A stretch of DNA of 10,199 nucleotides from Candidatus Aerophobota bacterium (lineage in GTDB: Bacteria > Aerophobota > Aerophobia > Aerophobales > B3-G15), in the NCBI GenBank assembly GCA_030607765.1, contig JAUWJJ010000019.1, forward strand, positions 1-10,199, written 5' to 3'. Under the pieces are notes generated by a model. The model was not told the origin of the DNA. It ran no database searches and saw nothing but the letters and a program-made list of their open reading frames with translations. Position 1 is the stretch's first letter. Every line of letters starts with the position of its first letter. Position numbers and translations under genes: made by a program. Below, piece after piece: positions 3,689-10,199 of the stretch.

Positions 3689-4669
3689 ATGAAGAAAGTT
3701 TTTTTTATAATTTTTCTGATAAGTCTTACCTTTATTTTTTTTAAATTTAATGCCGGGTGGTCCCATTCTGAGTTAGTGGATCGGGTAATAGCTACAGTAA
3801 ATGGGAAAATAATTACTGAGGGTGAGCTACAAAGGGAGATTTTTCTTGTTAGAAAAGAACTGGGGATAGAGAATGGCGACTTAGAGAAAAAAGTTATTTC
3901 GCAGATGATAGATGACTCTTTGCTTGAGCAAGAAGCAGAAGAAAGAAAAATAAAAGTTTCTTCCCTTGAAGTAGAAGAAACCGTGGAAAAAATCAGAGGA
4001 AATCTTTCTGAAGAGAAGTTTTTAGAAAGTTTAAGGAAAGAAGGATTGTCCCTTGATGAATTCAAAGAAAGACTTAGGGGACAGGTTCTTCAAGAGAGGT
4101 TGCTGTCTCAAAAGGCGGAGGAGATAAGAGAGGAAATCATAATACGGGAAGATGAAATAGAGGATTTTTATCAAAGATTAAAAGCTTACTTGCAAGGTGA
4201 GGAGAAAAAAGAAGAGGATACTGAGCGATTCTATCAATCCTATCAGGAAAAATTAAAGCAGGTTCAAATAGCTCAAATTATAGTTGAGGGAAAAGATAAA
4301 GCAGAGGAGGTTGGTTATTTATTAGAAAAGGGAGAGGATTTTTCTACTCTGGCAAAAAATTTTTCCTTAACTCCAGAAGCCGAAAAAGAAGGGAACTTAG
4401 GGTGGTTTAGTTTATTTCAGATAAAACCTTCCCTAAGAGAAGAAATTATGAAACTGAAAAAGGGGGAAGTAAGCAAGATGTTTAAAATTGAGGATGATTA
4501 TTATTGCTTTATCAAGTTAACGGATGAAAGAAAGTTTCTATTCAGTGAGTGGAGAGATAAACTTAAAAATTATCTGTTCCAAATAAAGATAGGAGAGGCT
4601 ATGGAGGCTTGGATAGTAGGGTTAAGGTCAAAAGCTCAAATCGTGATAATTGAGCCTTCTTTACAGTAA
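3689..4669 (+). CDS. Exported SurA/PrsA-type foldase with a parvulin-like domain
   Basis: This is probably an extracytoplasmic chaperone that helps outer-membrane or secreted proteins fold. Residues 1-22 form a signal peptide (MKK, a hydrophobic core, possible cleavage after A22). There is no lipobox cysteine, so it resembles periplasmic SurA more than lipid-anchored PrsA. Residues 28-165 form a SurA-N type helical chaperone domain beginning VDRVIATVNGKIIT. Residues 192-280 match a parvulin (PpiC) domain, with FSTLAKNFS and NLGWFS conserved. Both histidines expected in the parvulin active site are replaced, by Q196 and C273, so isomerase activity is doubtful. The only sensible start is the ATG at 3689. 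It lacks a clear Shine-Dalgarno, the sequence before it being A-rich. The gene stands apart from its neighbours by spacers of 97 and 213 nt. Family assignment is firm; the exact role is inferred. Confidence 0.85.
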   Translation: MKKVFFIIFLISLTFIFFKFNAGWSHSELVDRVIATVNGKIITEGELQREIFLVRKELGIENGDLEKKVISQMIDDSLLEQEAEERKIKVSSLEVEETVEKIRGNLSEEKFLESLRKEGLSLDEFKERLRGQVLQERLLSQKAEEIREEIIIREDEIEDFYQRLKAYLQGEEKKEEDTERFYQSYQEKLKQVQIAQIIVEGKDKAEEVGYLLEKGEDFSTLAKNFSLTPEAEKEGNLGWFSLFQIKPSLREEIMKLKKGEVSKMFKIEDDYYCFIKLTDERKFLFSEWRDKLKNYLFQIKIGEAMEAWIVGLRSKAQIVIIEPSLQ

Positions 4670-4688
4670 TACAAGGAATAATTACTAT
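4660..4688 (+). promoter_or_regulatory. Predicted sigma-70 type promoter for the murA operon
   Basis: TTTACA (4660-4665, five of six matches to TTGACA) is followed by a 17-nt spacer and TACTAT (4683-4688, four of six matches to TATAAT, keeping the first TA and the last T). It overlaps the stop codon of the chaperone gene. Predicted initiation near 4695 falls at the first unit of the octamer array, leaving a leader of about 188 nt before murA. The placement mirrors the promoter overlapping the end of mfd. Confidence 0.5.
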
Positions 4689-4691
4689 TCA

Positions 4692-4858
4692 GCCACAAAG
4701 ACACGAAGACACCAAGATAAATGCGTAAATGTGTGAAAGCGTTAATGGGTAAATGGATAAGAGGCTAAAAGGTGAATGAGTAAAGTGCTTCTACACTTCT
4801 ACACATTAACAGATTAACGAGATTATGGCACTTCTTTGTGCCTTAGTGACTTAGTGGC
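4692..4858. repeat. Terminal inverted repeats of the octamer array
   Basis: The left arm is 4692-4717 and the right arm is 4833-4858. Comparing the left arm with the reverse complement of the right gives 21 matches in 26 positions. The five mismatches are at arm positions 6, 10, 14, 18 and 22, exactly every fourth base. The conserved triplets alternate CAC and AAG. In a transcript the arms could close a large stem of 3-bp helices and single mismatches around the central units. There is no flanking target duplication that I can see and no encoded protein. Confidence 0.7.
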
Positions 4859-4860
4859 GG
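4693..4860 (+). repeat. Array of 21 degenerate octamers in the murA leader
   Basis: All 168 nt divide into 21 octamers in a single phase. The left end has CCACAAAG, ACACGAAG and ACACCAAG (4693-4716). The middle has units such as GTAAATGT (4725), GTTAATGG (4741), GTAAATGG (4749) and CTAAAAGG (4765). A perfect tandem pair TTCTACAC lies at 4789-4804, then ATTAACAG and ATTAACGA (4805-4820). The right end carries TGTGCCTT, AGTGACTT and AGTGGCGG (4837-4860), the inverted form of the left end. Nearly every unit contains a stop triplet and no ORF crosses the region. I recall broadly similar degenerate repeats in intergenic DNA of assorted environmental bacteria but cannot cite a named family. The function is unknown. 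Confidence 0.8.
4827..4842 (+). other. Small perfect hairpin inside the murA leader
   Basis: GGCAC (4827-4831) and GTGCC (4838-4842) can pair around the 6-nt loop TTCTTT. The T-run is in the loop and not after the stem, so this is not an intrinsic terminator. The right strand of this hairpin is also part of the right arm of the long inverted repeat, so the two folds would exclude each other. Confidence 0.4.
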
Positions 4861-4870
4861 AACTGTTAAA

Positions 4871-4874
4871 AGGA
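4871..4874 (+). promoter_or_regulatory. Ribosome binding site of murA
   Basis: AGGA lies 8 nt before the ATG at 4883. The octamer phase ends at 4860, so the site is just outside the array and would stay accessible unless the leader folds onto it. Confidence 0.7.
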
Positions 4875-4882
4875 ATAATAAA

Positions 4883-6139
4883 ATGGAGAAATTTGTTATT
4901 GAGGGAGGCGTTCCCCTTGAAGGTACGGTTAAGGTTGGTGGAGCAAAGAATGCTGCCCTGCCCATTATGGCTGCTTGTCTTTTGACAGAGGAAGAGTGCT
5001 TTCTGGAAAATATTCCTTATTTAACCGATACTCAAGTTATGGGAGAAGCTTTAAAAGAATTGGGAGTAAGAGTAGAAAGGAAGGGAGAGAAATTAAAGAT
5101 TAATGCCGGGCATCTGATCCAATATGAGGCTTCCTATGAAATGGTAAGGAAAATGAGAGCCTCTTTTCTAATTTTAGGCCCCCTCTTAGCCCGCTTGGGC
5201 AGGGCTCGGGTAGCCCTACCAGGGGGTTGTAACATTGGAAGAAGACCTATAGATTTGCACTTAAAGGGATTAAGTCAAATGGGTGCAAAAATTGAAATAA
5301 AACACGGATATGTGGAAGCTATTGCCAAAAGAAGGTTGCAAGGAGCAAACGTTTATTTTGATTTTCCCAGTGTGGGAGCTACTGAGAATATAATTCTTGC
5401 CGCCTGTTTAGCTAATGGGACTACTACTATTAAAAATTCCTCTTGCACTCCCGAAGTTTTAGACATGATTAACTTTTTAAAGAAGATGGGGGTAAGGATA
5501 GATGGTGGGGGAACTAATATTGTTAAAATTGAAGGAAAAAGGGAAATTTCTTCCGCTAATTATTCTATTATTTCTGAGCGCATAGACGCGGGAACAGTAA
5601 TGATAGCAGCAGGTATTAGCAAAGGAAAAATAACTCTAAAAAGAGGAAATCCAGATCATCTTGGGGCTCTTCTTGCAAAATTAAAGGAGATGGGAGTAAA
5701 AATTGAGATATCGGATAGCGCTATAAGAGTTAATGGAGAATCTGATATTAACCCTATTAGAGCAAGGACTCTTGCTTATCCTGGTTTTTCTACAGATTTT
5801 CAACCCCAGTTATCCTCTTTAGCCTGTCTGGCTAAAGGAAAAAGTATAATAGAGGAAAATATCTTCGAAAATAGATTTACCCATGTTCCTGAATTGAGGA
5901 GGATGGAAGCTCAGATTGAAGAAGGAAACTCAAGAATAATAATTGAGGGAGTTCCTTTCCTATCAGGAGCCCCGGTAACAGCTCCTGACATAAGGGGAGG
6001 AGTAGCTTTAGTATTAGCTGGATTAGCAGCCCGAGGAGAAAGTGAAATTTTTGAGATTCATCATATTGACCGGGGATACGAAAGATTAGAAGAAAAACTT
6101 TCTCAGCTTAAAGTGAAGATAAAAAGAAAAGAGGGTTAA
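4883..6139 (+). CDS. murA: UDP-N-acetylglucosamine 1-carboxyvinyltransferase MurA
   Basis: MurA catalyses the first committed step of peptidoglycan synthesis in the cytoplasm: transfer of enolpyruvate from phosphoenolpyruvate to UDP-GlcNAc. The 418 residues match the family's full length. The substrate-binding K22 and N23 sit in GGAKNAALP. The loop PGGCNIGRRPIDLH carries the catalytic cysteine at C116, so sensitivity to fosfomycin at this residue is expected, unlike lineages with aspartate there. D305, in STDFQPQ, corresponds to the general base Asp305 of the E. coli enzyme. The C-terminal THVPELRRM and HIDRGYE blocks are also typical. It opens a tight gene run: its TAA directly abuts the ATG of mreB. 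A predicted promoter and an unusual repeat-built leader precede it. Only one murA copy is visible here, so MurA versus MurA2/MurZ cannot be decided. Confidence 0.97.
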   Translation: MEKFVIEGGVPLEGTVKVGGAKNAALPIMAACLLTEEECFLENIPYLTDTQVMGEALKELGVRVERKGEKLKINAGHLIQYEASYEMVRKMRASFLILGPLLARLGRARVALPGGCNIGRRPIDLHLKGLSQMGAKIEIKHGYVEAIAKRRLQGANVYFDFPSVGATENIILAACLANGTTTIKNSSCTPEVLDMINFLKKMGVRIDGGGTNIVKIEGKREISSANYSIISERIDAGTVMIAAGISKGKITLKRGNPDHLGALLAKLKEMGVKIEISDSAIRVNGESDINPIRARTLAYPGFSTDFQPQLSSLACLAKGKSIIEENIFENRFTHVPELRRMEAQIEEGNSRIIIEGVPFLSGAPVTAPDIRGGVALVLAGLAARGESEIFEIHHIDRGYERLEEKLSQLKVKIKRKEG

Positions 6140-9605: not shown

Positions 9606-10199
9606 ATGCAAATAAAAATAAAACTACGCATATTATTTATTATTTTAATAGCTGCGGTGTGCTATGGGATATCTGCATCTATGGGAGTAAATCCCCGGAT
9701 ACCTACTTTAATTGGTGGATGCATAACTGCCGTAGTGGTAATTATGGAGATAAGTTTTTCTCGAATCTCTGTAAGAAAACTAATTGCTGGTGGAATGGGT
9801 TTAGGGGGAGGAATTGTTATAGCTAATCTTTTAGCTTATCCTCTTCTTTTAATTGAACCTTTAAAGCTATCCGCTCCCTTTATCCTTTTAGTGATAAATT
9901 TAATAGGTGCCGGTGCAGGATTAACAATTGCTTTAAATAAAACCAGGGAACTGTTTGATCTCTTTTTCTATCTTATAGGTAAAAAATCTCAAGTTGTAAT
10001 AAGGGGAGGACGTAAACTTTTAGATACATCGGTTATAATTGATGGTAGAATAGTGGAACTTTGCGAAACTGGCTTCATAGAAGGGGTTCTGGTTATACCT
10101 CAATTTATCCTTACCGAGGGTCAACAAATTGCCGATTCTCCTTCTTCCATTAAGAGACCCAGAGGAAAAAGGGGACTGGATATAGTAAACAAACTGCAG
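9606..10199 (+). CDS. yacL: YacL-type membrane PIN-TRAM domain protein, 5' part; 3' end outside window
   Basis: This frame stays open for 198 codons to the window edge. The product has a short basic start and about four hydrophobic segments (roughly 8-28, 33-52, 60-82 and 90-108), then a soluble PIN nuclease domain. That domain begins KLLDTSVIIDGRI, with acidic residues D140, D146 and E171 at positions expected for the metal site, and continues through VIPQF and RGKRGLDIVNKLQ, which is characteristic of the YacL family. In full-length relatives a TRAM RNA-binding domain follows; here it would lie beyond the edge. The biochemical role of the family is poorly defined, so ribonuclease activity is only inferred. 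A gap of 27 nt from disA fits operon membership. E171 is followed by G172 where relatives usually have leucine, which is minor. Confidence 0.9.
   Translation, partial: MQIKIKLRILFIILIAAVCYGISASMGVNPRIPTLIGGCITAVVVIMEISFSRISVRKLIAGGMGLGGGIVIANLLAYPLLLIEPLKLSAPFILLVINLIGAGAGLTIALNKTRELFDLFFYLIGKKSQVVIRGGRKLLDTSVIIDGRIVELCETGFIEGVLVIPQFILTEGQQIADSPSSIKRPRGKRGLDIVNKLQ

Follow-up and report, generated by a model that had tools for sequence, protein, structure and literature searches.

An octamer array upstream of murA in an Aerophobota genome is probably an inserted copy of a palindromic, MITE-like element

Introduction

What is an array of degenerate octamers doing directly upstream of murA, and how did it come to lie there? 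The locus belongs to Candidatus Aerophobota bacterium (contig JAUWJJ010000019.1 of assembly GCA_030607765.1), from which a stretch of 10,199 nt, here called the window, was analysed. An initial annotation of the sequence described positions 4693-4860 as 21 degenerate octamers in unbroken, exact register whose units drift into inverted forms, and suggested an RNA element, a repeat-expansion relic or a mobile sequence without coding capacity. It would have given up this reading if neither a second genomic copy nor conservation in relatives had been found.

In the present study we describe the periodicity of the array, its limits, and related sequences in bacterial genomes and viral contigs. With a probability of about 0.7, we consider the array to be a copy of a non-coding, palindromic, MITE-like element of the Candidatus Aerophobetes lineage, inserted in the murA ribosome-binding region with duplication of 8 bp.

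Periodicity of the spacer

The ppiC-like gene ends with a stop at 4669 and the murA ATG is at 4883, which leaves a spacer of 213 nt. Among the neighbouring genes, mfd, murA, MreB, RadA and DisA are assigned by NCBIfam matches above cut-off, and the ppiC-like protein has a SurA match below the NCBIfam cut-off. Over 4693-4860 the identity at lag 8 is 0.588, compared to a mean of 0.265 (sd 0.033) in 2000 dinucleotide-preserving shuffles (z 9.8), and 0/2000 shuffles reach it; the 8-nt period is real. Lag 16 is elevated as well (z 4.5), and lags 2-7 and 9-15 are not raised over the same interval (largest z 1.5). The ends are not the sole source of the signal, since 4720-4830 alone gives a lag-8 z of 7.8. 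The highest lag-8 score in any other 168-nt stretch of the window is 0.39.

The register is near-exact, but to call it unbroken was an overstatement: Tandem Repeats Finder divides the spacer into five separate period-8 rows, one of them with 5% indels, and a one-base phase slip is seen by eye near 4772. The drift into inverted octamers was correctly described, and the whole array is a single long imperfect palindrome, folding 1.6 sd better than shuffles as RNA and 2.2 sd better as DNA. The octamers are part of a larger unit, 4681-4869.

A probable insertion at the ppiC-murA junction

A MurA scan of genome contigs, of which the best 80 of 309 loci were considered, identified a locus in Candidatus Aerophobetes AUK284 (L001) with a MurA that is 80% identical, the runner-up being 51% identical. 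In AUK284 the ppiC-murA spacer measures 14 nt and holds no array. In the window, an exact AAGGAATA immediately flanks both sides of the 189-bp unit, whose tips and arms form terminal inverted repeats at its two ends and within which no ORF of at least 80 aa is listed. The parts of the unit and its flanks are as follows.

4673..4680, no strand: AAGGAATA, target-site duplication of 8 bp, left copy; it adjoins the tip on the outside and recurs without mismatch at 4870-4877.
4681..4869, no strand: inserted palindromic element of 189 bp, absent at the L001 ppiC-murA junction, with ends that match the tips of dispersed elements in the AUK284 genome.
4681..4693, plus strand: left tip ATTACTATTCAGC, of the family GTWACNRTTCAGC, with the first base different.
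4694..4716, plus strand: left arm, CACAAAG A CACGAAG A CACCAAG, that is, three CACNAAGN units; viral relatives, too, usually have three per arm.
4717..4833, no strand: octameric core with units such as GTAAATGG, CTTCTACA and ATTAACAG, itself partly inverted; it contains the 4720-4830 stretch with period 8, and related cores occur in L113, L122, L415 and L420.
4834..4856, minus strand: right arm, with the reverse complement CACTAAG T CACTAAG G CACAAAG.
4857..4869, minus strand: right tip, with the reverse complement TTAACAGTTCCGC, of the family GTWACNRTTCAGC with 2 differences.
4870..4877, no strand: right copy of the 8-bp duplication AAGGAATA, an exact repeat of the left copy; murA starts at 4883.

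Judged from these sequences, the array is best read as an insertion rather than as a murA leader, and from its position the right copy of AAGGAATA is probably the murA ribosome-binding site. As the two MurA proteins are only 80% identical, a small chance of loss in AUK284 is left, but the 8-bp duplication argues for gain. A blastn search of plasmid and phage records with the spacer as query gave no match.

Related elements in Aerophobetes

The AUK284 genome (G001) is a fragmented 1.5-Mb draft in many contigs, and the copy counts that follow refer to this genome and not to the window organism. With up to 2 mismatches allowed, the arm pattern CACNAAGNCACNAAGNCAC matches at 63 sites, 30 of which show no mismatch at all, compared to 0 for a reversed control; at the same tolerance the tip followed by CAC has 71 matches compared to 5. 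The related copies are scattered over many unrelated sites. In 27 regions that were inspected, the elements have 13-nt tips GTWACNRTTCAGC, one arm like CACCAAGACACGAAGACACCAAG and another like CACTAAGTCACCAAGGCACAAAG, with variable cores, and several lie at contig ends. Tips were paired allowing at most 4 mismatches per tip and requiring at least 12 nt of flank (one further pair, ending at a contig end, was dropped), which gave 14 elements including the one in the window; 12 of these are 150-190 bp long.

The flanks repeat exactly over 8 bp in 4/14 paired elements (the window, L118, L124 and L127) and at 7/8 positions in L109; in the other 9 they agree at 6/8 or less. None of 182 mismatched control flank pairs was exact at 8, and duplication lengths of 4 to 12 other than 8 produced at most one exact case each. 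In 20 further regions the same tip caps elements with other arm units, for example CACGAATTTA/CACGAATAGA spaced 10 nt apart. Ten of these could be paired, with 8/8 duplications in 2 and 7/8 in 2, a count that has no separate control and includes one doubtful pairing (L422). At L414, L417, L419 and L423, GTWAC tips cap 10-nt-spaced arms that are CACNAATNNN-like or of CACGGATGGA type, not octamers.

Lag 8 is the top lag in 17/18 elements with CACNAAG-type arms, the exception being L101, where lag 7 comes first and 8 second, and in 0/6 elements with other arms. The window-like cores listed above differ in the number of octamers. The empty site in AUK284, the exact 8-bp flanking repeat and the dispersed related copies together make a mobile sequence without coding capacity a well-supported reading, and the copies in relatives remove the ground on which the initial annotation would have been given up.

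The arm pattern occurs in 2/17 genomes of the phylum of AUK284. In the second of them (G009), the tip and CACNAAG arms of locus L128 enclose a AATTGTCAATTTTCAATTG-like core at about 1488-1600; this unit type is also found between genes of phage L392.

Octamer arms in other bacterial phyla

Three consecutive CRCNRAGN units were found in 9/145 genomes of Omnitrophota (the phylum of G029), with 0 in the control. Seven of 12 fetched loci from this phylum were inspected by eye and hold single arms or longer direct arrays, not clean hairpins. One locus, L137, from a genome with 38 such matches (G117), has a longer direct CACTAAGG array and no opposite arm. A two-armed hairpin pattern is present in 14/395 genomes of the phylum of G021 (Syntrophorhabdaceae), again with 0 in the control, and in one genome (G308) the four copies inspected (L455-L458) are nearly identical. 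By eye, an outer palindrome, TCGTAAAAAG...TTTTTACGA, encloses the octamer hairpin at these four loci, an arrangement that would fit the nesting of one hairpin in another's loop.

Among the genomes reached through the MurA scan (best 80 of 309 loci), 1/23 has the triple CRCNRAGN pattern and the control also gave 1; the arrays are thus patchy. In WOR-3, the phylum of G031, the tip pattern is not above chance by count (7 exact matches compared to 5 for the reversed control); at 4/7 of the exact tip matches, an octamer array is found no more than 200 nt away.

CACNAAG hairpins in viral contigs

The three-octamer pattern occurs in at least 120 stretches of viral contigs, of which 80 were analysed; the scan required three units in one arm. 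Of neighbouring runs no more than 260 nt apart, 53/56 are in facing order, CACNAAG...CTTNGTG, and the arms have three units on both sides in 44/58 elements. Successive units are spaced by 8 nt in 337 cases, 9 in 5, 10 in 2 and 16 in 12, and the reversed motif gave one pair in all. Given that three units were demanded in one arm, the second arm is the fairer test: a partner arm with at most 5 mismatches in 18 follows 96/132 viral arms (63 exactly), compared to 2/132 for the reversed pattern, elements with two exact arms being counted twice. Partner arms were chosen by their triplets, and the variation is 0-0.8 bit in triplet columns and 1.6-1.8 bit in the N columns.

The free bases of the two arms might pair with each other, but this idea was rejected. 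The N positions are equal at a frequency of 0.281, compared to 0.344 when shuffled, in the 32 elements with three full octamers per arm, which is no excess and, if anything, less; over all 58 elements the values are 0.302 and 0.324, also without excess. Together with the low variation of the triplets, this indicates that it is the triplet letters that are kept, not fourth-base pairing.

By a crude ORF caller, coding overlap is below 30% in 57% of the viral elements compared to 8% of random stretches, and 16/58 elements overlap a called ORF by half or more. The viral copies have no tips of the Aerophobetes type. Target duplications show no clear excess in the 58 elements: a 6-nt repeat was found in 6 cases compared to 2.8 expected, and 7- or 8-nt repeats in 3 compared to 1.3, the three longest not being arm-adjacent in a common register. 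A second unit pattern, three GTNAATNG units in a row, occurs in 27 viral stretches; this count has no control, the window core has no exact match to the pattern, and nothing is concluded from it.

Repeat units in phage gene gaps

Phage contig L161 has four CACNAAG-type hairpins in short intergenic gaps, and one neighbour is a tail tape-measure protein (PHROGs). Gaps were surveyed in relatives of another L161 protein, which has no PHROG match, and of the L179 major head protein (PHROGs); 100 loci were collected and 54 used, duplicates and partial matches being left out. Bare gaps are common, with 35/82 unique gaps shorter than 45 nt. Other gaps often hold hairpins of units identified by eye as GTTCAAN, CAGTNGN, GGCTGAA, AGCTCAT or CGCAGAGA, and in some phage operons similar hairpins lie directly before ribosome-binding sites.

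In the 47 gaps of at least 45 nt, some of which are mis-delimited and include coding sequence, lag 7 has the highest mean z, +2.35, followed by lag 14 with +1.53 and lag 8 with +0.86; no other lag from 4 to 15 exceeds 0.32. A z of 2.5 or more is reached at lag 7 in 22/47 gaps and at lag 8 in 5/47, about a third of the gaps having no such period and the octamer gaps L308, L386 and L387 coming from or lying beside the contigs that prompted the survey. Where both gaps of a phage are at least 60 nt long, they have two or more 7-mers in common in 8/11 phages compared to 23% of 220 between-phage pairs. The mean number of shared 7-mers is 11.8 within a phage and 1.2 between phages; L313, L390 and L399 share none. 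The pattern may reflect a turnover of host- or lineage-specific hairpins.

L387 and L386 are 99% identical over the major head protein gene, and the gaps lie on both sides of it. In each gap of L387 a 38-nt palindrome (CCGTTCGACAGGC...) lies inside a CACNAAGN arm, after an AAG triplet and with no clear duplication, and in the upstream gap a related palindrome interrupts the opposite arm.

Mechanism and alternative explanations

The element of the window is short and non-coding, it has terminal inverted repeats, a fixed 8-bp duplication and dispersed copies in AUK284, and on these features it is MITE-like. It would have landed in the murA ribosome-binding region and duplicated 8 bp there, and as the duplication leaves murA a copy of the ribosome-binding site, the insertion could persist. 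A transposase supplied in trans would move the element, and the fixed 8-bp duplication suggests one of DDE type. Judged by conservation and spacing, each arm, with its three CACNAAGN units at rigid intervals, is a putative series of iterated binding sites, in which both triplets would be read and the base after each would not.

Two families were considered as the source of the transposase and rejected. IS66 elements have a GTAA-type tip and 8-bp duplications, much as found here, but their transposase is absent from the AUK284 genome and from 10/12 other genomes, and the loci in the remaining 2/12 have neither the tip nor an octamer array. IS1595 is likewise absent from AUK284. Among the tip matches of this fragmented draft no autonomous element with the same tips was seen, and no tip pair of protein-coding size. 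These negative results weigh against the MITE-like reading, as do the 9/14 paired elements whose flanks agree at 6/8 or less, the viral copies without duplications beyond chance, and the match of the arm pattern in no more than 2/17 genomes of the phylum.

Alternatively, the hairpin could owe its spread to a Y1 (RAYT-type) transposase acting on single strands, the mechanism suggested for REPINs, and the 8-bp duplications in Aerophobetes would then stem from a separate transposon that captured the hairpin. The viral copies, which have octamer arms without such tips or duplications, are in line with this, as are five Y1_Tnp matches in AUK284 and a hairpin architecture and extragenic preference like those described for REPINs (PMC3116915). 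However, Y1_Tnp and the element do not go together: Y1_Tnp is found in 7/17 genomes of the phylum, of which six lack the arm pattern, and G009 has the element and no Y1_Tnp. None of the AUK284 Y1_Tnp loci inspected (L407, L434-L437) has an octamer array; in L437 there are only two weak hits to the tip, at 3 mismatches. By this route one would also not expect the exact duplications of 8 bp that flank the window copy and three others. We regard this origin as unlikely for the window copy; for the wider class discussed below, a single-strand route may still apply.

Still less probable is a cis-acting RNA or DNA element retained in the murA leader to regulate murA. The array does lie directly before the murA ribosome-binding region, and in some phage operons similar hairpins also precede ribosome-binding sites, but the junction in AUK284 lacks the array, related copies occur at many unrelated places in that genome, and bare gaps are frequent in the phage relatives. 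The two best Rfam hits score 20.7 and 16.5 bits against gathering scores of 45 and 46.9, the RNA fold is a mere 1.6 sd above shuffles, and promoter- and terminator-like sites in the spacer are not above shuffles. The leader role implied by the initial annotation therefore appears improbable from the sequence.

Growth of the tract in place by replication slippage and its later decay, the repeat-expansion relic of the initial annotation, would account for octamer numbers that vary between related cores and is at most part of the story. It leaves unexplained why the flanks are duplicated, why the tips are shared and the order is inverted, why the arms keep to three units, and why the same CACNAAG triplets occur in other phyla. 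With dispersed copies that have common tips found in AUK284, it has hardly any probability as the origin of the array. For an inserted MITE-like element, the octameric core could have arisen from octamer blocks that were gained, lost or nested in register.

Relation to known repeats

The element can be compared to three described systems. The BrickBuilt MITE of Porphyromonas gingivalis is described as short, non-coding, multi-copy and intergenic, with inverted-repeat ends and tandem repeats without spacers (PMC4596501). The window element resembles it in being short and non-coding with inverted-repeat ends and tandem repeats; by that account, however, BrickBuilt has a 23-nt unit between small inverted ends and occurs in one species only, whereas here the ends themselves consist of degenerate 8-nt units with a free fourth base, found across phyla and viral contigs. 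REPs and REPINs are, like the element, small, non-coding extragenic palindromes, with inverted doublets able to form hairpins, but a REP is presented as one palindrome that carries a tag tetranucleotide (GTAG or CGTC), and octamer arms, a free fourth base and 8-bp duplications are not among the features described (PMC3116915, PMC3733652). Their association with a RAYT (Y1) gene was not found for the present element, which Y1_Tnp presence does not track.

The TAACTGA repeats of Beggiatoaceae, Cyanobacteria and Bacteroidetes are likewise short tandem units, intergenic and often placed just before start codons, and the patchy spread of these heptamers is taken to suggest horizontal transfer (PMC4679880). 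They are reported as one nearly invariant unit, in 169 direct sets and one indirect, with no predicted secondary structure, whereas the units studied here are degenerate and inverted (PMC4679880). As far as these descriptions go, none of the three systems has inverted, degenerate, rigidly spaced octamer arms. The main text of a review of prokaryotic MITEs makes no mention of tandem repeat, octamer, heptamer, 8 bp or phage (PMC10969869). The open-licence literature gave no description of CACNAAGN hairpins, which is weak evidence of absence.

Beyond the murA locus, we tentatively propose, at somewhat less than even odds, a widespread and undescribed class of hairpins defined by its rhythm and not by any one sequence. 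Each arm would repeat a unit of 7 or 8 nt (in some cases 9 or 10) a few times in tandem; a recognition system would read the fixed letters, and defined positions of the unit would be free to vary. There would be many unit "dialects", each common to one host or phage lineage, and the hairpins would enter intergenic sites and one another's loops and mostly stay in register. If such a class is real, part of the unexplained intergenic repeats in uncultivated bacteria and phages would follow one logic, that of mobile hairpins with iterated-site ends. It would offer a concrete target, the putative protein that reads CAC-N-AAG every 8 bases, and would advise caution before such an array upstream of a gene is taken for a leader RNA or a regulatory site. 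As the two gaps of one phage usually share their unit, the unit type of a phage might trace its host.

Genes at the window edges

Two ORFs at the edges of the window were assigned by eye. A short ORF at 87-404, upstream of mfd, is similar to the C-terminal region of a peptide chain release factor and is probably cut by the window start. The ORF at 9606-10199, downstream of disA, is cut by the window end and looks like a membrane-anchored protein of PIN/TRAM type.
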